A DNA stretch of 64,000 bases from Methanobrevibacter sp. (GTDB taxonomy: Archaea > Methanobacteriota > Methanobacteria > Methanobacteriales > Methanobacteriaceae). Where the stretch lies: NCBI RefSeq assembly GCF_030539875.1, contig NZ_JAUNXI010000011.1, positions 1 through 64,000 on the forward strand, in the 5' to 3' direction. Both the position numbers and the translations under genes were made by a program. This document shows, one piece after another, positions 6,076 to 22,551 of the stretch; position 1 is the first letter of the stretch, and the number at the start of each line of letters is the position of its first letter. Under the pieces are notes generated by a model. The model was not told the origin of the DNA. It saw only the letters and a program-made list of their open reading frames with translations, and searched no databases.

Positions 6076-6111
6076 TAAAAAAAAAAGAAAAGAGAGGAAT
6101 TATAAATTCCT
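6076..6111 (-). terminator. Terminator of the fwd operon
   Basis: On the minus strand AGGAATT-TAT-AATTCCT forms a 7-bp hairpin that contains the fwdC TAA stop, followed by a run of pyrimidines ending in about ten T residues. Confidence 0.7.
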
Positions 6112-6966
6112 GTATTCTCTAATTGAAGTATATTCGTCGTCGAGTTCGCCGTAAGATGCTAATTTTTCTTTATTAGCTTCAGCGTCTAAGTAAAGGTTAC
6201 CTTTACCGTTAAGACCAATATCTCCAGTATATTTAATATATTTACCTTCGAATGTGATTCCGTCAACTTCAGGATTTACAACGATACCATCGAGAACGAA
6301 TCCTTCGAGTAATCTTCCAAGGAATCCGTGAATAATGATGTTACCGTTTTTCATTTGGCCTCCAGGCCAACGGTTAACGTCACCGTCAATTTCGATAATA
6401 CCTTTGGTCATGTGAATACCGGCCAAGATATCACAGTTACCTTTAACGTGAATTCTTCCACCAGTTAAACATTCACCACATTGTTTACCGGCATTACCAC
6501 CGACAACAATTTGTCCACCAGTCATACCTCTCCATTCACCGATGTAGGAAGCACCAGTGAATTCTTTGGTATTACCTTCAATTTCAAGGTATCCGCCAGA
6601 CATTTCTCTTCCAGCGTGAGCAGCAGCATCCCCTTTAACAAGAATGGATCCGCCAGACATTTCAGCACCTACGTGTAAATCTACACTGCTGTTACAGACG
6701 ATTTTTCCACCGCTCATTTTACAACCAATGTATTTTACTCTGTTTAAATCACCGTTGAGAATCATTTCAACTTCATCAGGTCCATTAGCTTCTCCTTCAA
6801 TGGTAATGTCGAAGAAATCGGTGATTGGGAATCTTGAATTTCCAATAGGAACTCCATATTTTGCGAAATCAGCTTCAGTCCAGGAGTAAATTTCATCAGG
6901 AATTAACTCATCAAATTCTAAAGCGATTGAAGAAGTTTTGATTTGATCAAAAGTTATTGTTTTCAA
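6100..6966 (-). CDS. fwdC: Formylmethanofuran dehydrogenase subunit C
   Basis: FwdC is a structural subunit of the tungsten/molybdenum enzyme that reduces CO2 to formylmethanofuran, the first step of methanogenesis. Its centre is a run of glycine-rich repeats ([46 protein letters not shown]) typical of the right-handed beta-helix shared with the C-terminal domain of glutamate synthase. It is the last gene of the operon. The start is probably TTG 6966, because the in-frame GTG at 6975 forms part of an AGGGGTG ribosome binding site with the right spacing to that TTG. Confidence 0.95.
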
Positions 6967-6977
6967 ATTAAACACCC

Positions 6978-8693
6978 CTATTTACCATCAACATCTATTC
7001 TAATTGGGTTAGATACGTAGTGGTCGTGTACTGGGTAGTTATCCCATTTAACTGAGTAGTATTGAGTAAAGAACGGCATAATGTTGTCGATAACTTTTTG
7101 TTCGTTTTGTTCCCATCCGTTTACGTTAACCCAAATGTTTTGACTTTCTTTAACTTTTACAATTTCTTTATCTTTTACTAAGATTTGACCATCTTTAATA
7201 GTGTAGTCAGCTACATTGAAACCTTGTTCAATTTCAGCATATTGTCTGGACGGATCAATATCATTAGGATTTATGTCATATACAGCAATGTCTGCTCTGT
7301 AACCAGGAGTGAGTGCACCTCTGTCAGTGAATCCGTAGATTTTAGCAGGAGCAGATCTGGAAATAGTTGCAATATCGTAGAAATCGTATTCTCTGTCGAG
7401 AGTTGGAAGAGTAGTTCTTTTTTCTACCCATTTGTGAACTTCTCTGTTTTCAATCATTTCCATTCTTCTGGTATTACTCATTAACCAAGAGATAATTCTA
7501 GGATATCTAGTGAACGGACCTGCATTAGGGTGGTCAGTAGTTAAACATACTTTCCATGGGTCATCAATGTGTAAGAACAATTCAAGACCAATAGCCCATT
7601 GTAAAGAGTTAACAGGGTTTTTACCTGAGTAAATACATGGGATAATACCTGCTGCGGTTTCACATTCAATATCTTTGTTGGTCCATTTTAAACCAGATAA
7701 TTTGAATAAGTCATATTCCATAGGAGCATCAGCAGTCATGGTTGTGGTTTCGTCTAAAGTAACTTGACCTACGTCACAGGTGACATGGTCGTGTTTGTTA
7801 ATGTATTTAGCGATTTCTTCTGCACCGGACGCTGCATCTTTCCAGCTGTTTCCAGTGTAAGCGTGGAATTGTAAGTGACAAAGGTGCATAACTTGATCTC
7901 TGATTTCAGCTGCTTTGGAACCTTTTTTAACGTTTTTAACAGCATCCATAGTTTCTATGGTGGTTGGCACGTTACCAGGGTGTCCTAAGTCGTTAGGGTG
8001 AATGTGAATAGAGTGAGGCAAGTTTAACATTTCGTTAGCTTTAGCTAAAGCTTGAATAACTTCTTTGGAAGTTACGTCAAAGTAAGGTGCTTTATCATTT
8101 ACACCATGTACGTTCATACCCCATCCCCATGCTTCACTTCCACATGGGTTTACGATTTTAATACCGTAACCTTTGGAGATTTTTAACCATGAAGAAACAA
8201 ATGCTGCGATGTCTTCAATATTGTTATCTTTTGCATATTCCAATACAAACCAGTTGTTACCGAATAATGGTAAAGCTGGAATATCGAGTTGAGGAATAGT
8301 TGCAATTTCTTCGTGAGTGTGTTTTGCTTCAAGAGGAGGCATAGCTGCTTCAACAACAGTACCATAACCTAATCTTGAATATCTGTAACCGGTTGCAGGA
8401 CAACTTGGAATAGAGAAACCAGATTCGGATCTTAAAACTTTAGTTTTTTGAGTAACACCCCTTCTGGAATCTTCAGGTCTGTATAACCTTCCAACTACTA
8501 ATTTAGGACCTGCAACGTGTGCGTGAGGGTCAATACCTGCTGGCATAACTATTTTATCAGTAACGTCTAAGACTTTAGCATCAGCAGATACATCATCTAC
8601 AATAATACCATCTTTAAACATAACGTCCTTTTTTTCACCGTTAATCTCATTAGCTGGGTCGTAGACAATACCGTTTTTAAGAATATATTCCAT
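6978..8693 (-). CDS. fwdA: Formylmethanofuran dehydrogenase subunit A
   Basis: An amidohydrolase-fold subunit of about 571 residues that joins formate and methanofuran at a binuclear zinc site. Visible ligand regions are HAHVAG near residue 55, the candidate carbamylated lysine in GYGIKIVNP, the [11 protein letters not shown] and [10 protein letters not shown] segments, and [10 protein letters not shown] with its catalytic Asp. The length fits the family. I start it at ATG 8693, preceded by AAGGTGATATA; the longer frame would add 12 residues overlapping fwdB. It sits between fwdB and fwdC. Confidence 0.96.
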
Positions 8694-8703
8694 TATATCA
8701 CCT

Positions 8704-10080
8704 TTAAAGTGCGTTTGGATTTGGCACATATTTTGGAGCTACGTTAGGCTCTTCTCTGAGTTTCATTACTCTTTCTTTTAATTCACGGACAATCCATTCG
8801 TCGTCACGACAGGTTTCAGGTTTGTCGATTGCTTTTCTCATGAAAATAGGAACTCCGTCCATACGGTAACTGGTACCGCCACATTCTACGCCTATGAATG
8901 AACCAGGCAATACAACATCAGCGAGTTCAGTTGATGGTCCCCAGTGAATATCGATTTGGATAACTGGAATGTCAGCTAAGTGTTGGTTTGCTCCATTAGG
9001 GAAGTGAGCACCAGGGTCAGCTGCAATAACCATGAAACAGTCAGGTTCTTTTCTGACCAATAAATCGATAGTGTTGGTTTCACCCATCATATATCTTGGG
9101 TAACCTCTACAGTAGTCAACACCGAAAGCAAATCCACATTCGAATGCCATGAAAATGTTGAATCCGTTTACGTTAAAGTGACCTCTCATTGGAGTAAGAC
9201 CCCATTTACTGTATTTGTTTAAGTCTTGAACCATTTTAATCGCAATATCAATGTTTCTTTGTTTTGATAAAGTGTGGGTTAAACCTAAACCGAAGAAGAG
9301 AACACCGAATTCTGCATTTTTCATTTCTTCAGCTAATTCGTAAATGTCTTCTTTAGGAATTCCGGAAATTACATCTTGATATAATTCTTTTCCTCTGAGT
9401 ACAGCTCTAATAGCATTGTAGAAACCGTAGTCTCCGTTTTGTTCGAATCCAATCCATTTGTCGGAACATTTTGCAGTATCTGAGAATTTTGGATCCATAG
9501 TTACGACAGTTCTGTCGAATCTTCCTCTTTGTCTGAAGTATCCACGACAGAAAGCAGCGTATCTTGCTAAGTGTCTAGGGTGAGAGTTCATAGCGTTACT
9601 TCCAGAGTAAACAAGCATGTCTGCTCTGTTTTGAACTTCCCCTAAGGTTTGAATAGGGTATCCAGCGTTTTGTACAGCTTGGAGAGAAGGTCCGTGACAG
9701 ATAGTAGCTTGGTTATCTAATACTGCACCAATGTATTCACCTAATGCTACTCCTTCTTTCATACATTCGGTTGAGGTTTCAGACCAACCGTAGAATACTG
9801 GTCTGATGGAATTAGCAATGTATTCAGCAGCTTTATCTAAAGCAGTATCCCAGTCAACTTCAGTGAGTTCTCCGTTTTCATCCCTAATCATTGGAACAAG
9901 TAATCTTTGATCCATATCTTCCATGATTTTACTTGCTCCTAATCTGCATGCGTGTCTTACAGCAACTACGTGATTATCTTTAACTAAGTAATCTAAATCA
10001 TCACAGTTACAACCACAGAATGCACAGGTACAATCTTCAACAATGTAATCATAATCAGTTACAGGTGGTTCATAAGTCAT
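8704..10080 (-). CDS. fwdB: Formylmethanofuran dehydrogenase subunit B (W/Mo-pterin catalytic subunit)
   Basis: This is the catalytic subunit that reduces CO2 to formate at a bis-pterin tungsten or molybdenum site. The N-terminal Cys cluster ([10 protein letters not shown]) binds the [4Fe-4S] centre. The metal ligand is the Cys in [13 protein letters not shown], about residue 128. It is a TGT codon, not TGA, so this is the cysteine and not the selenocysteine form. ATG 10080 is preferred over the TTG two codons earlier; AAGGAG lies ten bases upstream. The first codons overlap the end of fwdD. Sequence alone does not say whether tungsten or molybdenum is used. Confidence 0.96.
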
Positions 10081-10639
10081 GATCAATCAACTCCTTCCAT
10101 TTACGTCCATGATAAACAGGCAATTCGCCTAAAGAATCCATGTCTTCAACAACATCGTCTTCTTCTTCATCAACATATTTTTTGTATACCCATCTCATTA
10201 AGTCAGCCATGAGTAAAACTTTTCTGTCAGTTTTTTCAACAGTACAGTGGATACCTTTGTAAGTAGGGTCAGAACAGCAGTAAGTATCATGACTTACAAT
10301 AGTGTTAGCCCATGGACCTTTACAAATGAATACTGTACCTTCGTGAGGTGCGTCTCTTGATACTGCGCAGTTTACAACTACTTCACCAAAATCGGTTTTA
10401 ACAAGAACAGTATCCCAGTTATTTACACCTAATTTTGCCATGTCTCTTGGGTCCATGTAACAAGTACCGGAAGCATTTTTATATTCTTCTTTTAAAGTGG
10501 ATCCTCTTTTTTTACAAGCACCTTGGTAGATGTCTGATCCTGTGTTTAACATACATTTAAGAACATCTGTACTTCCTTCACCAGTAATTTTTACATCAGG
10601 CACGACAGGTTTTTCTAAATAAGTATTAGCATAATGCAT
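10070..10639 (-). CDS. fwdD: Formylmethanofuran dehydrogenase subunit D
   Basis: FwdD is the molybdopterin-dinucleotide-binding beta-barrel subunit that pairs with FwdB; in other pterin enzymes the two are one chain. The N-terminal [12 protein letters not shown] and the middle [17 protein letters not shown] match the domain, followed by [20 protein letters not shown]. The C-terminal part is an acidic tail. GGGGG precedes ATG 10639. It overlaps fwdB by about ten bases, consistent with translational coupling of the two halves of the catalytic unit. Confidence 0.95.
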
Positions 10640-10652
10640 TATATAATCCCCC

Positions 10653-10883
10653 TTATTCTAACCATATTGCGTTTACTGGGCAAAACATTTGACATGTTCC
10701 ACACTTTTCACATTTTTCAGCACTGAAAAGTTTGATAAATCCATTTTCAACCATCATAATAACTTCTTCAGTCTTTGCACCATTACCACCAGCATTTTCA
10801 GGACTGATAGCTGCGTTAACAGGACATGCAATTACACAAATTCCACATCCTAAACAATTATCTTGATTAACTTTAAGTTCCAT
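10653..10883 (-). CDS. fwdG: Formylmethanofuran dehydrogenase subunit G (2x[4Fe-4S] ferredoxin)
   Basis: A 76-residue dicluster ferredoxin with the two motifs [15 protein letters not shown] and [15 protein letters not shown]. It feeds electrons from the polyferredoxin FwdF to the FwdBD pterin site. GGTGAT precedes the ATG. It lies between fwdF and fwdD, the usual place in Methanobacteriales. Confidence 0.94.
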
Positions 10884-10891
10884 CCAATCAC

Positions 10892-11989
10892 CTAGTCTTT
10901 AATAGCATCTAAAGCTTCTTTCCAAGTAGTAGAGTTAATAGGAGTGTGATCAACTTCAGTTCTTTTTACAGTAATAGCACCGTTAGGACATGCTTTTGCA
11001 CATGCTTTACAACGTACACAGAATTCGTCGAAAGCAGTTACATGTTCCATTCTAGAACCAGGACCAGCAGATACAGGGAATGCTAAAGCATTACATTGAC
11101 AGACATCTACACAAGCACCACAAGCTTGACATTTTTCATCGTCAACTTCAATACTACCTTCAAATGGTTTTTTAACTTTTGCTGCATCAGTAGGACATAC
11201 TCCTTCACACCATCCGCAGTAAACACAGAGTTCTGAGTCAATGACAGAATTTCCAGTAACAACAGCATCTGAAGGATTTAAGTCATATTCACCATAGTTA
11301 CATGCTCTACAAATTGCTTTGATAGCATTGGTAGGACAAGATTTTTTACATACAAGACAGTATACACATGCATCTTTGTCAATAACAATGGATTCCTTGC
11401 CGGTTTCGTGATCTACGATAATAGCTTCTGCAGGACATAATTCTTCACATACGCCACAGTAGATACATTCATCTTCATCAACATCAATTTCACCAGTTAC
11501 TAAATCAGCACGGTTTGGTAATATTCTGTCGATGACGATTGCATCACGAGGACATGCAATTTCACATCTTTTACAGTAAACACATTCATCGTCATCAATT
11601 TCTGAGAAAGCAATATAGTGAGGATATGCTTCAATTTCTTTAATCGGTACGTCGTCAATAGTTAATACTAATGCATCAACAGGACATAATCCGCTGCACA
11701 TACCACATAATACACATTTACTTTCGTCAATGCTTATTCTTTGAACATCAAAGTCTTCTTTGAAGTTTTGTGCAATTTTTTCATGTCCACTGAAGTAAAC
11801 GTCATTTGAAATTCTGTGACGAGCATCGACAGCAATCGCGTTTAATGTAATTGCTTCAACAGGACAAGTAGATTCACAAATCCCACAACCTAAACAGACA
11901 TGGTCGTTGAATGACAAGTTTCTAACTTCGTCTGCAGACCTTGTGATGTCAAAGTTATTGTCTTTAACCTCTTTTAAATTTCTAATCAT
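10892..11989 (-). CDS. fwdF: Formylmethanofuran dehydrogenase subunit F (polyferredoxin)
   Basis: A 365-residue polyferredoxin in which CxxCxxCxxxC clusters recur, for example CLGCGICESTCPVEA, CVLCGMCSGLCPVDA, CVYCKRCEIACPRDA, CIYCGVCEELCPAEA, CVYCLVCKKSCP, CVYCGWCEGVCP, CQACGACVDVCQ and CVRCKACAKACP. This gives eight [4Fe-4S] sites. It wires the Fwd core to heterodisulfide reductase or ferredoxin. GGAGAT precedes the ATG. The start overlaps the last codons of the HTH-ferredoxin gene, so the two are translationally coupled. Confidence 0.96.
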   Translation of the reverse strand: MIRNLKEVKDNNFDITRSADEVRNLSFNDHVCLGCGICESTCPVEAITLNAIAVDARHRISNDVYFSGHEKIAQNFKEDFDVQRISIDESKCVLCGMCSGLCPVDALVLTIDDVPIKEIEAYPHYIAFSEIDDDECVYCKRCEIACPRDAIVIDRILPNRADLVTGEIDVDEDECIYCGVCEELCPAEAIIVDHETGKESIVIDKDACVYCLVCKKSCPTNAIKAICRACNYGEYDLNPSDAVVTGNSVIDSELCVYCGWCEGVCPTDAAKVKKPFEGSIEVDDEKCQACGACVDVCQCNALAFPVSAGPGSRMEHVTAFDEFCVRCKACAKACPNGAITVKRTEVDHTPINSTTWKEALDAIKD

Positions 11990-12440
11990 ATTTAATCTCC
12001 AAAATTTTTATAGAATTAGTTGGGCATTCATCTTCACAAAGCTGACAACCACAACATTGTATGGAGTCTGCATGCGCTTTTAATGACTCTAATTTAATAG
12101 CATTCATCGTACATGCATTTACACATAAGCCGCAACCAATACAAGAATCTTCCACCATTGCTTCAAAATCTCTTTCTCGGCAAATATTCACAATTTTACG
12201 ACTCTTTTCCGGTTCATTAAATATAGCTTCAGTCATTTTTAAAAAATCTTTGGGAGACAAGTCGATGATTGTTCTTGCAACATCAATAGAGTTCCAAGAC
12301 AGATTTCTACCATTTAAATAATGAGAAATAGTAGAACGATCAACACCCAGCTCATCAGCAATTTCTTGATGACTTTTTCCAGCATCTTTTAATTTGACGG
12401 CTGCCAAATATTTTAAACCAGATGCAATATGTTTCGGCAT
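11982..12440 (-). CDS. fwdH: HTH-ferredoxin protein, first gene of the fwd operon (FwdH position)
   Basis: The gene has the position of fwdH in the Methanothermobacter fwd operon. The N-terminal 45 residues are a helix-turn-helix (SHQEIADELGVDRSTISHYLNG), and the C-terminal half holds two 4Fe-4S motifs (CIGCGLCVNACTMNA and CCGCQLCEDECPTNS). Such a protein could sense iron-sulfur or redox state and regulate the operon it heads. ATG 12440 is chosen because GGTGG lies just ahead; the longer start at 12452 falls inside the 19-bp palindrome. The regulatory role is an inference. It may instead, or also, be an electron carrier of the Fwd complex. Confidence 0.85.
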   Translation of the reverse strand: MPKHIASGLKYLAAVKLKDAGKSHQEIADELGVDRSTISHYLNGRNLSWNSIDVARTIIDLSPKDFLKMTEAIFNEPEKSRKIVNICRERDFEAMVEDSCIGCGLCVNACTMNAIKLESLKAHADSIQCCGCQLCEDECPTNSIKILEIKYD

Positions 12441-12450
12441 TTGAACCACC

Positions 12451-12469
12451 ATGTGTAATGATTACACAT
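12451..12469. promoter_or_regulatory. 19-bp palindromic operator in front of fwdH
   Basis: This is a perfect inverted repeat, ATGTGTAAT-G-ATTACACAT. It lies 10-29 bases upstream of the chosen fwdH start and about 25 bases downstream of the minus-strand TATA box, so it should cover the transcription start. A second palindrome of the same size and pattern sits at the other end of the interval. Confidence 0.75.
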
Positions 12470-12490: not shown

Positions 12491-12529
12491 GTTACCTACT
12501 AGAATAAAGACACAATATTTATATATAAC

Positions 12530-12546
12530 TGTGGTAAAGCTACACA
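12530..12546. promoter_or_regulatory. Degenerate third copy of the palindrome
   Basis: TGTGGTAAAGCTACACA keeps the right half (CTACACA) of the 19-bp palindromes exactly but only part of the left half. It could be a weak auxiliary site. Confidence 0.35.
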
Positions 12547-12774: not shown

Positions 12775-12793
12775 ATGTGTAGTAACTACACAT
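12775..12793. promoter_or_regulatory. 19-bp palindromic operator upstream of mobB/moaA
   Basis: A perfect inverted repeat, ATGTGTAGT-A-ACTACACAT, identical in size to the one at the fwd promoter. It differs at one position of each arm plus the centre. It lies 67 bases upstream of the mobB start, ahead of the likely TATA box, unlike its partner, which covers the start of transcription. Confidence 0.75.
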
Positions 12794-12859: not shown

Positions 12860-13897
12860 ATGAAAATAGTATCTATTGTTGGAAAGAAAAATACAGGCAA
12901 AACATCACTAACTGTAAAAGTTATTGAAGAGCTCAAAAAAAGAGGCTATAACGTAGCATCCATTAAACATTCCCATCACACGATGGAAATGGATAAAGAG
13001 AATACGGATACCTGGAAACACAAGCAAGCCGGATCCAGTGTTGTGGTAGGTATTGGTTCTACAACCTTCTTTAACGTGAGAAAAGAAATGGATTTGAACA
13101 GACTGCTATTCTTAATAAAACATATGGACACTGTTGATTTTGTTGTAATTGAAGGATTTAAAAGATACAACTATCCGAAAGTCGCAACATCACCTGATGT
13201 AGTTGATGAATACACAATTAAAGAAGTTGATTCATTTTCAATTGATAATGAAGGAATAAAAGACCTGGCAGACATTATTGAAGAGAGATCCCATGATATT
13301 GTAGACACATTATTTGCAAACAACTGCGGTTTCAATAACGGTGAAGCCATTGCATCAGAGATTCGCTGTGGAAATCTAAGTGCTGAAGATTTGGATAATG
13401 TATCAAGTTATCTTTCAATTGATGGTAATGTAGTTGGCCTAAACAGGTTTGTCAGCGATTATCTAAAGCAGAATGTCCTTGGCGTTATCAATACATTGAA
13501 TTTGGATGAATATAATGTTGAAGATATTTCAAACATTGAATTAATAATTCCGGGTGAACCCCTTAAACAAACCCCTATTGATGCAAAATGCACCATTCTA
13601 GTTAACAACAGGAATCTTGAAATCAATATGTTTGCAAACAACATAATTGCAAACTCCATAAAAGGAATGATTAACTCGATTAAAACAGAACCTGACGTGA
13701 AAAAAATCAATGTTGACATCACCAACATCAAAGGAGATGATTTGGAAAATGCCGACATTGAACTCAAAACAAATGGCCATGATGTGGAAATCAACAAATT
13801 CACTCAGGGAATATTGAAAGAAACTATTTTTGCAGTTGTAAACTCCCTAAAAATCGATGAAGAAATTGAAGAATTGAAAATAAAAGTGGAAGAATGA
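12860..13897 (+). CDS. mobB: MobB-like molybdopterin-guanine dinucleotide protein with three C-terminal repeats
   Basis: Residues 1-150 match MobB, the GTP-binding helper of MGD formation: P-loop GKKNTGKTS (8-16), SIKHSHH (35-40) and VVIEGFKRY. Residues 153-180 look like a decayed Fe-S domain: NNCGFNN and [11 protein letters not shown] stand where a CGxCGxxxC pattern would be expected. Three related segments follow at about 185-230, 245-288 and 300-343. Each has a short strand, a helix ([57 protein letters not shown]) and a final strand. The usual MobB is only about 165 residues. moaA follows after 4 bases. Confidence 0.85.
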
Positions 13898-13901
13898 TTA
13901 T

Positions 13902-14834
13902 ATGCTTGAAGATGTAGTTAAAGACAAATATAAAAGGCCAATTCTTTCACTTAGAATCACAATAACAAATAGATGTAATGAAAACTGCATATACTGCCAT
14001 CATGACGGAATGGTTTCGTCAAAAGATGAAATGACCCCGGATGAATTATATCTGATAACTAAAATAGCTAAAAAAATTGGAGTTAGAAAAATCAGACTTT
14101 CCGGCGGAGACCCGTTGGTTAGAAAGGACATTGTGGAAATTGTTGAAAAGATTGCAAGTCTTGATTTTAAAGATATTTCCCTCACAACAAACGGAGTGCT
14201 GCTTGAAAAATATGCTGAAGATTTAAAAAAAGCTGGATTGGACAGAGTCAATGTCAGTTTAGATACTCTAAAAAGAGATACATATAAATTTGTAACCAAT
14301 ATGGATTATTTAAATGAAGCAAAAGCAGGGATACTAAAAGCTGTTGAAGTGGGATTGTATCCTGTTAAAATAAACATGGTAATAATGAAAGATATTAACG
14401 TTGATGAAATAAAAGACATGTTTATGTTCTGCAGACAGCACGGCATCATTCTTCAGCTGATTGAATTGATTGAAAGCGAAAATTGTGAGGATGATAAATT
14501 CAGCGATGAATATCACTATCCTTTAGACCCTATTGAAAAAACGTTAGCAGATATGGCTGATGATGTTTATGAACGCAAGTTTATGCAGGGCCGTAAAAAA
14601 TATTACATTAACGATGGTGAAATCGAAATAGTCAGACCGGTAGATAACTCTAAATTCTGTGCAAACTGTTCCAGATTAAGGATTACACCAGACGGTAAAA
14701 TAAAACCTTGTTTGCTTAGAAATGATAATCTTGTAGAATTGATTAATCATGTCAGAAATGGTAAAAGTGAAGAAGAACTTGAAGAAATCTTCATAAAGGG
14801 CATCAACAAGCGCGAACCATTTAACAAGGATTAA
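13902..14834 (+). CDS. moaA: GTP 3',8-cyclase, molybdopterin synthesis
   Basis: A radical SAM enzyme that starts molybdopterin synthesis by rearranging GTP. The N-terminal CNENCIYC motif binds the SAM cluster. The glycine-rich [11 protein letters not shown] and SLTTNGVLL follow. The C-terminal [19 protein letters not shown] provides the three Cys of the second, substrate-binding cluster. The length of 310 residues is normal for archaea. It forms an operon with mobB; moaC is elsewhere in the window (46.2 kb). Expression is probably tied to the palindrome upstream of mobB. Confidence 0.95.
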
Positions 14835-14903: not shown

Positions 14904-14930
14904 GGATGAAAGGGAAGAACCCTTAAATCC
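14904..14930 (-). terminator. Terminator of fdhB
   Basis: On the minus strand, GGAT-TT-AAGGG-TTCTT-CCCTT-TC-ATCC folds into a two-part stem that includes the fdhB stop, followed by GTTTTATTTTTTT. Confidence 0.65.
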
Positions 14931-16128
14931 ATTTAGCTTTGGATACGTGATCAGTGAATGGAAGTGGATCATCACTGCCCATTCCTGGGATGTATCCGTA
15001 GATGTCTCTTACTTTGTTGTTTATAGTACTCCATACTTTAGCAACAGGGATTTCAGATGGACATACTTCGGAACATTGACCGCAGTTTGTACATGCATCA
15101 ACCATGTGTACTAAACGAGTTAAGTGGAAGAATGGAGCTGCAGGAGTGTATCCACCAGGTACCCATTCAGGTCCTTCTGCTTCAAGACAGCAGTCTTCAC
15201 AGAAACATAATGGACATGCTTCACGACAACCGTAACATTTCATACATTTGGAGAATTCTTCTTCGTACATGTGGAATACATCAATAATATCTCCAGTAGT
15301 ACCTGCATAATCAACTTCTTTCTTCTCGGTGGACTCTTTGAGCATGAAGTTATTAATGTTTTCCCTAATTTTGATACCTTTTTCTTCAGGCGCGGTAGTT
15401 TCAATTAAACCAGCTTCAATAACTTTGTCTAATACTTCTGCACCTTTGTCGGAAAATACTTCTACGAAGGTAGCTTTTCCGGTTAAAGGACCAATAACTC
15501 CCCAGTTACCTAAAGCTAAGTCAGCGTTTGAAGGAATTTTAAGATTACATCTTTGACAGTTTTCTCTTCTACCCATACCTTGTTCTTCTAACTCACTGAT
15601 AGCAATACCTTTTTCACCGTCAGCAGTTTCCATAATGAGTTTACCTTTAGAAATTTCCTCTTTGACAACATCTTTAGGATCTAATTCATATACATCTCTA
15701 ATCATGTTCATGGTAGGAACAGGTGACATTGTTCCTCCACAATTTACACCAATCATAATCACGTTATCTTCGATGATTTTTCCTTTTTTCATTAATTCTC
15801 TGATGGTCATTGCATCACAAGGTTTACATGCAACTGCAAGTTTCATGTCTCTTGCACCATCTAAGTATTTGGATACGAATTTAGCAATGTTTAAAGTACC
15901 ACAGTGAATTGATCCAGCAGTTTTAATAACATCTGCAGGGTCAGTTACGAGAATTGGAACACCGTCATAAATATCGTAACCTTCAGTTACACCTACTACA
16001 CCGTCAACGATACCTTCTTCTAATAAGTATTTCATGATGGTAGTTACTACACCACCGTACTCTCCTTTTTCTTTGATATCTTCGATAGCGGAGTATGCGT
16101 AGTACATATCGTTAATTTTTGCGCTCAT
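14923..16128 (-). CDS. fdhB: Formate dehydrogenase beta subunit (F420-reducing)
   Basis: FdhB carries FAD and [4Fe-4S] clusters and passes electrons from the FdhA site to coenzyme F420. The N-terminal half is the FrhB/FdhB F420 domain ([42 protein letters not shown]; a [20 protein letters not shown] stretch). The C-terminal third has ferredoxin motifs [14 protein letters not shown] and [22 protein letters not shown] precedes the ATG, and fdhA ends 17 bases upstream, so the two are co-transcribed. Confidence 0.95.
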
Positions 16129-16145
16129 TTAAATCTACTCCTCGT

Positions 16146-18311
16146 TTATTTACCTACTTTAATGGATGTAGTAGCCATGTTTTCAGCTTTAATTTCAGTG
16201 TCTGTACCATCTTTGTAGACTTCTCCTTTCATTATACGTTTTTCAGGGAGTTTTTCTACGTTAATAGCACAAGCTTTTAATTCAACCATTTTAGATTTAG
16301 GGTCGAAAGAATCGGAGTTAGTTAATACGTTTGCAGCACATTCTACAAAGTGCATTGGGATGTTTACAATACCTTCTTTAATAATATCAGTTACACGTGC
16401 AGGAATTGCAATTTCTCCTCTTCTTGAGTAAGCTCTTACAACTTCACCATCGATAATTCCTCTTTCTTTAGCATCTTTAGAGTTAATTTCGATGAATCCG
16501 GTTTTTACCTCATTACTTAAGGTTTCACATCTTCTGGTCATAGCAGCGTGATAGTGGAACAATACTCTGGTAGTGGTTAAGAGTAATGGATATTCTTCAT
16601 CAGGAGTTTCAACAGGTCCTTTGTGTTCTAATGCTTGGAAAATACCTAATCCGTCAGGGTGTGCGAATTTTTCTTTGTGCATTAATGGTTGACATGGATC
16701 ATCTTCAGAAGGACAAGGCCAGTGAAGTGCTTCAGGAGTGTCTAATCTTTCACGGTTCATACCTGCCATGATAGGAGCACATTCTCTGATTTCTTCAAAG
16801 ATTTCTTCAGCAGATTCATAGTGGAATAATGGTCTTGGTACGCCCATTCTAACTGCGATTTCTTCCATAATTTTCCAATCTACCCATGCGCCTTCAGGAG
16901 GTTCTTGAGCTTTGTGTAAGCATTGTACTCTTCTTTCACCGCTTGTGAAAGTACCTTCTTGTTCACCCCAACCTGCTGCAGGCAATACAACATCAGCACA
17001 TTGTGCAGTATCGGTTAAGAAACATTCTTGTACGACTAACATGTCTAAGTTTGCAAGTGCTTCTTTGGTGTGTTGTACATCTGCATCAGAGAGAACTGGG
17101 TCTTCCCCGTGGATGTATAATACTTTTAAGTCACCAGCGTGAGCTGCATTCATCATTTCAACTAAAGTTAAACCAGGAGTTGCAGGTAAGTTTACTTCAT
17201 AACCTTCACCGCTGTAGTAGTCGTTGAACCATGCGGTAGTTTCTGGGTCTGCAACTTTTCTGTATCCTACATAATCAGAAGGCAATGCTCCCATATCACA
17301 AGCACCTTGTACGTTGTTTTGTCCTCTTAATGGGTTTACACCAGTACCCATTTTACCAATGTTACCGGTTAACATTGCAAGGTTTGCAGTAGACATTACG
17401 TTGTCAGCACCGTGGGAGTGTTCGGTAATACCTAATGAGTATACAATAGCTGCTCTTTCAGCGGATGCATATTCAACAGCTAAGTGTTCAATAGTTTCAG
17501 GTTTGATGCCGGTAATTTCAGAAGCCATATCCAAAGTGTATTTTTGAACAACTTCTTTCATTTCTTCATAACCTTTTGTTCTGTTAGCGATGAATTCGTC
17601 ATCTTGCAAGTCTTTGTCGATGATGACTTTAATCATAGCGTTCATTAAAGCTACGTCAGTACCGGTTTCAAATTGAACATATTCGTCTGCGAGTTTAGCA
17701 GTAGGAGTGAATCTTGGGTCCAATACTACTAATTTTGCACCGTTCTTTTTAGCTTGAATAATTTTACGACCGAATAATGGATGAGCTTCCATGTTGTTGG
17801 ATCCGATACAGAAGATGTAATCAGCTTCTTTAATACTGTCGAATCCGTTGGTCATAGCACCTGATCCGAAGGTGGTTGCTAAACCTGCTACGGTAGGACC
17901 GTGACAGATACGAGCACAGTGGTCTACGTTTTGAGTACCACAAGCTACTCTTGCTAATTTTTGAGTGATGTAAATGTTTTCGTTAGGAGAACGAGCACAT
18001 GCGTAGAATCCAACTTTGTTTGGATCTTCATCTGATACTTCTTTAAGTTTGTTAGCAACTAAGTCTAATGCTTCGTCCCAGGAAGCTTCTCTAAATTCCC
18101 CATTTTCTTTTATTAAAGGAGTAGATAATCTGTCTTCCCTATTAATAAATTGATATCCAAAGTTTCCTTTTGGACATACTTTACCCTCGTTTACAGGGCT
18201 TCTTTTTAAAGGTTCTACACCAACAATTTTTTCGTCTTTTACAACGAAATTGAGTCCACATCCGGTACCACAGTATGGACAGATTGTTGGAACATATTTT
18301 ATTTCAACCAT
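16146..18311 (-). CDS. fdhA: Formate dehydrogenase alpha subunit (Mo/W-pterin)
   Basis: The catalytic subunit that oxidises formate to CO2. The N-terminal cluster is CPYCGTGC (Cys11, 14, 18) with Cys46 as fourth ligand. The metal-binding residue is Cys136 in [10 protein letters not shown], so this is a cysteine and not a selenocysteine enzyme. [14 protein letters not shown] and the C-terminal pterin-binding barrel are present. At 721 residues it is slightly long, with a poorly conserved C-terminal extension. GGAGAT lies ahead of ATG 18311. A hairpin terminator separates it from fdhC, so fdhAB may have its own promoter. Confidence 0.96.
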
Positions 18312-18354
18312 TTTATAATCTCCAAAATGTATTTTATTATAAATAATTTAAAAA

Positions 18355-18376
18355 AGAAGCTTAAAAAAAAGCTTCT
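18355..18376 (-). terminator. Hairpin between fdhC and fdhA
   Basis: On the minus strand AGAAGC and GCTTCT pair around a T-rich loop and are followed by TTTTTT. It lies 20 bases after the fdhC stop and 44 bases before the fdhA start, so it should end or attenuate the fdhC transcript. An AT-rich TATA-like stretch (ATTATAAATAATTT) sits between it and fdhA. Confidence 0.55.
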
Positions 18377-18395
18377 AAAAGTTCATTATACTATT

Positions 18396-19202
18396 TTATT
18401 CTTTGAGATAGGTGTACCAATAGATACAAGCTACAAAGAGTCCCCCACCAATAATGTTACCGATAGTAACTGGTATTAAGTTGTTAATGATAATAGTACT
18501 CCAGGTTACACCATTAGCACCTAAGAACATACCTAATGGGATGAAGAACATGTTTGCTACACTGTGCTCAAATCCAATACATACAAACGCCATGATTGGG
18601 AACCAAATACCAACGATTTTACCGATGATATCATCAGATGCATTAGCTAACCATACAGCTAAACATACAAGCCAGTTACATCCAATAGCTTTAATCATAG
18701 CAGTTAGGAATGGCATAGTAACTTTACCTTCAGCTACTGCAATAGCTTTAGCAGAAATAGCATATGCTGGTGCTGCGGTATCAACAGGAGTAATTCCTCC
18801 CATGAAAGCAAGAACGTAAGCTACAAATAAAGCACCTACGAAGTTAAATATCCAACTAATTACCCAATTTTTAGCAAGACCTCCAACGGAAGCACTACCA
18901 TCTAAAACACCAACAGTCATGAACATTACATTTCCAGTGAAGAGTTCAGATCCTGCAAGAACAACAATGATCAAACCTACAGGGAACACTGCACCAAATA
19001 CAAATTTTTCTAAACCAATAGGAGCGCCTGCGTTTAACATGCCTGCGCTTGCAACAACCGCTAATAAACCACCAAATGCAATATATGCACCTGCTAAGAA
19101 GGAAAGCAATATTACATTAACAATATTTGCGGATTCTTTTACACCAGCAGTATTTGATATTGCTTTCGCAGTATCAACTGGACTTTTAAATGATGAACTC
19201 AT
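18396..19202 (-). CDS. fdhC: Formate transporter, FNT family
   Basis: A membrane protein of 268 residues with about six hydrophobic spans, matching the formate/nitrite transporter family. Recognisable parts are [16 protein letters not shown] in the first span, [29 protein letters not shown] and the [15 protein letters not shown] segment. It imports formate for the FdhAB enzyme encoded just downstream. The 426-base upstream region and the hairpin after its stop suggest separate control of transporter and enzyme. Confidence 0.95.
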
Positions 19203-21626: not shown

Positions 21627-21684
21627 TTTTATCTATTCCAAAAATCGATATTATTAATTATGATTAAAATTTTATTTATAATTG

Positions 21685-22551
21685 ATGGAATTCAATAGTA
21701 AAGGATTGATAAGTTTAGAGATAAATGGCAATGTCTACGGATATAAATTATATGAAAGTTTAGAATCCCTATCCAAAACCAAATCCCAGAGAAGATCTGC
21801 AAAAGAGTTAAACATATCCCATACAGTATTTAATAGAAGGATGCTTAAAGCAGAAGAAAAATTAGGCTTTAAAATTACTCAAAAAATAGGAAACGGCACT
21901 GCACTTACTCCGGAAGGATTGGAATTATTGAATGAGTTTAGAAAATATGCACTTCAAATCGAAAAAACTTCTTTTATCAGCATAGTTGGAGGACATATAA
22001 GTGCGGGCCTTTTGGAAAGTATTGACCTGCCATTTAAAACAAGCATATACAGCAGCAATGATAAAGACGCTTTTGAGTTAGCTAAAAGAGGAGTTGTTGA
22101 CATATTGGCATTGGACGATCCGCTAATAGCTTTTGAAAAAGATTTGAATTTTTTCCCGATAGCTTACGATTATCTGGTTCTTATTTCAAGCCAGGGGACA
22201 GAAAAAATAGAAAGCATTTCCGATTTGGAGGGACTTGATTTTATAGAAGTGTCTGGGTCAGCTCAAAGGCTTGCCTGGAATAGTTTAAAACATTATGATA
22301 TAAAGTTCAACATTAAAGAAAAGGTAAACTCACAATTTGATGCTTATAAACGGGTCAGAAGCTCTAAAAATCTACATACATTTTTAAATGCCAGTTATTT
22401 TAAAGGAAATGAACTGCTGAAATTTGACACTCAGCATGTAATCAGTTTAGTTAAAGTTAACGAAGATAACTCCGAAATCGATGAACTTATAAGATATTTA
22501 ACAAAAGAGGGTCAGAAGGACATTGAAAAGCAGGGTTTTGCACCTATGTAA
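21685..22551 (+). CDS. ModE-like winged-helix regulator with substrate-binding domain
   Basis: The first 85 residues match the ModE/LysR type of helix-turn-helix, opening with LEINGNVYGYKLYESLESLSKTKSQRRSAKEL and ending in ALTPEGLELL. Residues 95-285 look like a periplasmic-binding-protein fold (ISIVGGHISAGLLE; KRGVVDILALDDPLIAF; VSGSAQRLAWNSL). No TOBE molybdate domain is visible, so the ligand is uncertain. Placement beside fdhD, fmdE and hxlB makes molybdate, tungstate or formate metabolism possible signals, but this is inference. The in-frame TTG one codon upstream is less likely than ATG 21685. Confidence 0.8.
   Translation: MEFNSKGLISLEINGNVYGYKLYESLESLSKTKSQRRSAKELNISHTVFNRRMLKAEEKLGFKITQKIGNGTALTPEGLELLNEFRKYALQIEKTSFISIVGGHISAGLLESIDLPFKTSIYSSNDKDAFELAKRGVVDILALDDPLIAFEKDLNFFPIAYDYLVLISSQGTEKIESISDLEGLDFIEVSGSAQRLAWNSLKHYDIKFNIKEKVNSQFDAYKRVRSSKNLHTFLNASYFKGNELLKFDTQHVISLVKVNEDNSEIDELIRYLTKEGQKDIEKQGFAPM

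Follow-up and report, generated by a model that had tools for sequence, protein, structure and literature searches.

The ThiR-like and GfcR-like regulators of archaea share one plan, in which an N-terminal helix-turn-helix (HTH) is joined to a metabolic domain that acts as sensor, a ThiN domain in the former and a phosphoribosyltransferase in the latter. FNR, IscR/NsrR and SoxR resemble the protein considered here in the cluster-gated DNA binding that we propose for it; to our knowledge, none of them contains a bacterial-type 2[4Fe-4S] ferredoxin domain, and their HTHs are of different families. Tfx of Methanothermobacter is likewise a DNA-binding protein of formylmethanofuran dehydrogenase genes, but it acts on fmdECB and we know of no Fe-S domain in it. 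In the dominant methanogens of gut and rumen, carbon is committed to methane when CO2 is reduced to formylmethanofuran. In the portion of PMC3087415 available to us, Tfx is described as molybdate/tungstate-linked, and FwdH is listed as an enzyme subunit, part of FwdA-DFGH, with no mention of an HTH. The literature searched, outside which the primary papers on the fwd operon and Tfx lie, yielded no description of the control of the tungsten-enzyme fwd operon, and FwdH appeared there only as a listed enzyme subunit. FwdH is thus a named gene that is functionally undescribed; what is new here is its reading as a regulator, the architecture of its putative operators and the proposal that the ferredoxin is a sensor.

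The window analysed is a stretch of 64,000 nucleotides from Methanobrevibacter sp. It contains an fwd operon in the order H-F-G-D-B-A-C (fwdHFGDBAC), with fwdH as its first gene, co-directional with fwdF, in agreement with the earlier note. The genes of the locus are as follows.

6100 to 6975, minus strand: fwdC (ORF and orthologues; name assigned by eye).
6978 to 8729, minus strand: fwdA (ORF and orthologues; name assigned by eye).
8704 to 10086, minus strand: fwdB (ORF and orthologues).
10070 to 10639, minus strand: fwdD (profile and PDB matches).
10653 to 10883, minus strand: fwdG, ferredoxin subunit (PDB 5t5i_G, E 6e-20).
10892 to 11989, minus strand: fwdF, polyferredoxin subunit (NCBIfam NF042909).
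11982 to 12440, minus strand: fwdH, HTH plus 2[4Fe-4S] ferredoxin protein, 152 aa when counted from M5, the conserved start within a 156-aa ORF.
12860 to 13897, plus strand: divergent mobB-like molybdopterin-guanine dinucleotide biosynthesis gene (Pfam MobB, 2.8e-31).
13902 to 14834, plus strand: moaA-like radical SAM gene (ORF, name given by eye from sequence), which adjoins fwdH in relatives.

From its first ATG the fwdH ORF spans 11982-12452 (minus strand), but M5 is the residue that is invariant as start in an alignment with the relatives, and the gene is therefore taken as 11982-12440, the same coordinates as were first noted.

We think it probable that FwdH, rather than being an enzyme subunit, is a local transcription factor dedicated to the fwd operon and the molybdopterin genes, and that it probably works as an autorepressor. 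The earlier note had proposed an iron-sulfur- or redox-gated autoregulator. Autoregulation is well supported, though indirectly, by an operator geometry that is fixed across the class, locus specificity, a single-copy HTH and the joint absence of fwdH and its sites in one genus, whereas redox gating is put forward only because the eight ligand cysteines are invariant. From these sequence patterns we infer specific DNA binding by FwdH and its possible gating by an iron-sulfur cluster or redox state, together with the sign of regulation and the signal.

The fusion of an HTH to two 4Fe-4S motifs, read originally from the sequence of the window, is borne out by Pfam, by a structural model and by a fold match. 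With residues counted from M5, the two parts of the protein are:

12264 to 12434, minus strand: predicted DNA-binding part, residues 3-59 (Pfam HTH_3, AF2 model, conservation).
11997 to 12167, minus strand: 2[4Fe-4S] ferredoxin part, residues 92-148 (Pfam, model, fold match, conservation).

The N-terminus is a Cro/XRE-like HTH (Pfam HTH_3, E 4.3e-6, 27.1 bits against a cut-off of 23), and the C-terminus matches Pfam Fer4 (E 1.9e-10); at E<=0.001, HTH_3 matches 49 of 51 FwdH orthologues and Fer4 all 51. An AlphaFold model built from 51 sequences (mean pLDDT 94, pTM 0.87) has both domains visible, with helices at 3-19, 24-31, 35-42, 49-59, 63-74 and 77-87 followed by the strands and helices of a ferredoxin fold; an earlier run with 14 sequences gave a poor Fe-S part (mean pLDDT 58.5). 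Structure prediction, suggested at the outset as a check on the N-terminus, thus returns an HTH there, with helices 24-31 and 35-42, the recognition helix being RSTISHYL. A chance match to an HTH is ruled out by the model together with the HTH_3 matches in 49/51 orthologues. Because a fold search with the full model gave the ferredoxin part alone among the best matches listed, the evidence for the HTH fold comes from Pfam, the model and an HTH-only profile, which against the PDB finds DNA-binding proteins (11 sequences at E<=0.1; best E 3.5e-5, chain DBP48). The ferredoxin part aligns with the clostridial 2[4Fe-4S] ferredoxin 1fca (Z 8.0, rmsd 1.4, 55 residues aligned). Its ligands form two CxxCxxCxxxC motifs (C100, C103, C106 and C110; C129, C132, C135 and C139), and all eight cysteines are invariant in 51/51 sequences. 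An extra cysteine, Cys130, is the neighbour of a cluster ligand of the second motif (CCGC, residues 129-132, 12045-12056) in 50/51 sequences.

By its sequence, the HTH is of a common kind, distantly related to that of ThiN-type archaeal regulators: the HTH profile finds ThiN-type proteins (E 4e-7 to 7e-6; ThiN named by eye), and NCBIfam PRK02277 matches FwdH weakly (E 1.9e-4, 21.1 bits against a cut-off of 115). The sensor domain of FwdH, by contrast, would be a ferredoxin in place of ThiN or a phosphoribosyltransferase. No CRP-, Rrf2- or MerR-type match is present among all 15 Pfam matches at E<=0.001 or among the 25 of 50 NCBIfam matches listed.

A profile search detects FwdH in 111 of the 151 genomes of the phylum, as a single copy in all but two, and the combined HTH and ferredoxin architecture was found in genomes of the class Methanobacteria only, including Methanothermobacter. 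In a search of 61 genomes, 58 match at E<=0.001, a number of them through the ferredoxin only; full-length FwdH occurs in the genus of the window, in two other families of the order and in one further genome of the class. The HTH profile has one match per genome in 6/6 genomes, and therefore no close paralogue competes with FwdH. Beyond the class, a non-exhaustive search returned ferredoxin-part or HTH-part matches and no protein with both. This search covered one 5-genome phylum with the whole profile, where nearly all matches were to the ferredoxin part only, 148 genomes of another phylum with the HTH profile, where the matches were ThiN-type proteins, and a genome contig scan with 80 of 221 matches listed.

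The Methanothermobacter protein (MTH1553 / MTBMA_c01390) is an orthologue that heads the fwd operon. Whether the HTH is general, and extends to Methanothermobacter, had been raised in the earlier note; it does, since HTH and 2[4Fe-4S] parts are both present in the FwdH of G047, a genome assigned to Methanothermobacter on the strength of its FwdF (725 bits over 332 residues against 9sw6 FwdF). FwdH of G047 is 55% identical to the window protein, and the proteins of family f2 are 54-57% identical over residues 5-156 in the numbering of the 156-aa ORF. The Methanothermobacter gene order is given as HFGDACB in the available part of PMC3087415, compared with HFGDBAC here.

The region upstream of fwdH contains the following elements.

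12452 to 12468, no strand: putative operator O2, TGTGTAATGATTACACA, in the fwdH leader beside the ribosome-binding sequence.
12519 to 12529, minus strand: presumed BRE/TATA box of the fwd operon, conserved ATATATAA (alignment, assigned by eye).
12530 to 12546, no strand: putative operator O1, on the minus strand TGTGTAGCTTTACCACA, 78 bp upstream of O2 and abutting the BRE/TATA box.
12776 to 12792, no strand: third (far) putative operator, TGTGTAGTAACTACACA, at a distance of 67 bp from mobB and of about 336 bp from fwdH, upstream of both.

O2 is the same palindrome as the one recognized initially at 12451-12469, ATGTGTAATGATTACACAT, which is indeed symmetric except for its central base; the copy at 12776-12792 and the weaker O1 at 12530-12546 are additional to it. 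Matches to the motif at <=2 mismatches number three in the window against 0.31 expected, O1 being a weak copy here and stronger in many relatives. The 17-bp consensus is TGTG(T)(A/G)N5(T/C)(A)CACA, and its half-sites, TGTGTA/TACACA, are 11 bp apart from centre to centre, or one turn, as for a dimer. Relative to the conserved ATG, O1 lies at about -105 and O2 at about -27, and the O1-O2 spacing of 77-79 bp is maintained while much of the intervening DNA drifts. The motif occupies fixed positions upstream of fwdH in 30 loci of the genus of the window, and it does the same in families f2, f3 and, weakly, f4, and in 67 named loci. In an alignment of 17 genus-level intergenic regions the conserved islands are the far site, O1, the TATA region and O2. 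Between the far site and O1, relatives (L053-L092) have more conserved inverted repeats (TTTAGG..CCTAAA and GTAATAC..GTATTAC), which are absent or weak in the window; the window's copy of the far site lacks a TTAGG-N5-CCTAA repeat that accompanies this site in relatives. A scan of the region for sigma-type promoters was set aside as inapplicable to archaea.

These positions suggest how FwdH might act. A FwdH dimer, its two recognition helices about one helical turn apart, would bind the 17-bp palindrome. It would occupy O1, in contact with the BRE that directly precedes the fwd TATA box, as well as O2 in the leader, and occupancy of the two would block TFB/TBP or the polymerase, so that the result would probably be autorepression of fwdHFGDBAC. 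Repression is favoured because O1 is at the BRE and O2 is in the leader; the end of O1 is the start of the BRE, and the presumed start site precedes O2, both placements being made by eye from the TATA box. The third site would extend FwdH control to the divergent mobB-moaA genes of molybdopterin synthesis and would match the supply of cofactor to that of enzyme. The far site is present at 40 of the 43 loci that have a divergent upstream mobB and at 12 of the 32 that do not; a link with mobB is therefore likely, though not an exclusive one.

O1, just upstream of the BRE, is positioned like the sites of archaeal activators such as Ptr2. FwdH could accordingly be an activator that recruits TBP/TFB from O1, a variant of the preferred reading whose likelihood overlaps with it; we regard activation as possible but not likely. 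The tungsten enzyme is described as formed constitutively in the accessible part of PMC3087415, and an enzyme that must be abundant would suit activation. However, there is hardly any gap between O1 and the BRE, and O2 is placed like a roadblock, in the leader and past the expected start (judged by eye).

The same description of constitutive formation bears on the signal. It argues against strong regulation, at least by metal, and makes tungstate an unlikely signal, although homeostatic autorepression would look constitutive. In the autorepressor model the C-terminal 2[4Fe-4S] ferredoxin would be the sensor: DNA binding would be set by cluster occupancy or by the redox state of the clusters, which would equilibrate with the low-potential ferredoxin pool. 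Candidate signals may be cluster supply, redox poise or oxygen. More tentatively, FwdH might sense the supply of low-potential ferredoxin, in effect of electrons from H2 or formate, its own clusters equilibrating with the pool from which CO2 reduction is fed, and so set transcription of the fwd genes, for the first enzyme of methanogenesis, and of the genes for its pterin cofactor. If so, FwdH would found a new regulator class and could be the H2 sensor, which the part of PMC3087415 at hand describes as not yet found.

It is also conceivable, but unlikely, that another regulator binds the palindromes and that FwdH is a mere neighbour whose HTH binds elsewhere. Several observations bear on this point and on the preferred reading. 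The 84 loci were reduced to 26 representative lineages of <80% identity (greedy choice, ungapped; loci with <135 upstream bases excluded). An O1-O2 pair at 77-79 bp with a score >=9/12 occurs in 19 of these lineages, against a mean of 0.017 and a maximum of 2 in 300 shuffles; at >=8 the figures are 22/26 (shuffle mean 0.76, maximum 5), and at >=10 they are 16/26 (mean 0, maximum 0). The scoring scheme derives from sites at fwdH loci, which aids its own statistics, and it is partly circular for that reason. Among all 84 loci the pair is present in 62 at >=9, and 12 lack it at >=8 while still encoding FwdH, as another regulator would allow. In 32 near-complete genomes the exact motif has 28 matches, against 0 for the reversed pattern. 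Locus specificity speaks against another regulator, for 26 of the 28 matches are at the fwdH locus (25 within 550 bp and one 2 kb off beside mobB; coordinates compared by eye). The two others, in two related genomes of one genus, could be taken in its favour; they (L178:1501-1517 and L179) lie away from fwdH, about 110 bp before an ORF for a 228-aa methyltransferase-like protein (by eye). Nine of the 32 genomes, all with FwdH, have no exact match. A chance repeat is ruled out as the origin of the palindrome by the excess in the window, by locus specificity and by the O1-O2 pair relative to shuffles. A wide regulon is unsupported, near-matches at <=1 mismatch in the window's genome numbering 6 against 7 for the reversed control, and an exact motif at C13:51250 falls inside a long adhesin-like ORF (by eye).

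Two further facts count against another regulator. First, the conserved gene that immediately follows the sites is fwdH, which encodes an HTH. Second, the O1-O2 pair and FwdH are jointly absent from two genomes of another genus, probably Methanosphaera (G130 and G131). These keep fwdG, D, B, A and C at 47-63% identity, while fwdH and fwdF are not at the locus; the sole fwdH match in this check (E 8e-5) is to the ferredoxin part of another protein. Their fwd contig has no motif match at <=1 mismatch. Single matches at score >=9 number 24 and 15 in 15 kb each, which is background-like, though one of the two genomes has three that overlap, about 145 bp upstream of fwdG. Twelve FwdH-less genomes of the window's genus were rejected as a test of co-loss, since all 12 also lack an FwdB orthologue (best matches only E 4e-14 to 6e-17, FdhA-like by eye), and therefore the fwd locus is missing or cut there, probably by an assembly gap.

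We consider it improbable that FwdH is an electron-transfer subunit of formylmethanofuran dehydrogenase with its HTH a relic or a protein-docking module. Its place as first gene of the operon, its ferredoxin fold and its listing in PMC3087415, of which a part was available, agree with such a role. However, although 5t5i, 5t5m and 5t61 contain as chains relatives of FwdF, FwdG and FwdD of the same operon (F and G also in 9sw6), no PDB chain matches FwdH beyond its generic ferredoxin part, and Methanothermobacter FwdH itself matches no PDB chain at E<=1e-12. In the solved Fwd complexes the chains are A, B, C, D, F and G, with no FwdH among them. Of the double role of subunit and regulator envisaged in the earlier note, the subunit half is therefore unsupported. 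The native M. wolfei enzyme consists of FwdA, BD, C and FG in the available part of PMC11656701, and the word FwdH is absent from the text of that paper. A weak association of FwdH would be compatible with its absence from purified complexes. Unlike a relic, the recognition helix (35-42) is the most conserved of seven segments measured, with a mean column identity of 0.96 and 6/8 columns invariant in 51 sequences; the means are 0.74 for the ferredoxin part and 0.60-0.65 for the linker helices.

That O2 is instead an RNA hairpin controlling translation from the leader is very improbable, since this short inverted repeat, although directly before the ribosome-binding sequence, has a stem of only 8 bp that is A/T-rich, and the motif has further copies that the fwd transcript is not expected to include, O1 (ahead of the TATA box) and the far site.

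If FwdH is a regulator, it should be reassigned from 'enzyme subunit' to 'regulator', and a true 2[4Fe-4S] ferredoxin fused with an HTH would be a sensing design. The conserved HTH-ferredoxin protein and its putative operators then lead to a precise model of which signal, electrons, Fe-S supply or oxygen, sets the first step.

Finally, we note some features of the surroundings. The MobB-like protein, at 345 aa, exceeds the length of MobB, and its Pfam match spans residues 2-110 only; part of the remainder is similar to MobB/FeS-type NCBIfam models, below their cut-offs. Formate dehydrogenase-like and formate/nitrite transporter-like genes (14923-19202, by eye) adjoin the fwd-mobB-moaA locus. 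Farther on, 21682-22551 encodes a LysR-type HTH protein (Pfam HTH_1, E 2.6e-6), and a similar protein is encoded near the fwd genes in G131 (by eye). The genome of the window has a second FwdF-like polyferredoxin gene (340 aa; G000:C7, L187:2297-4051), preceded by a small ferredoxin and situated behind a PPAT-like gene (by eye); checked as a further target, it has no operator in front. In some relatives (e.g., L188), a second FwdF-like gene lies between mobB and fwdH, with one site on either side.
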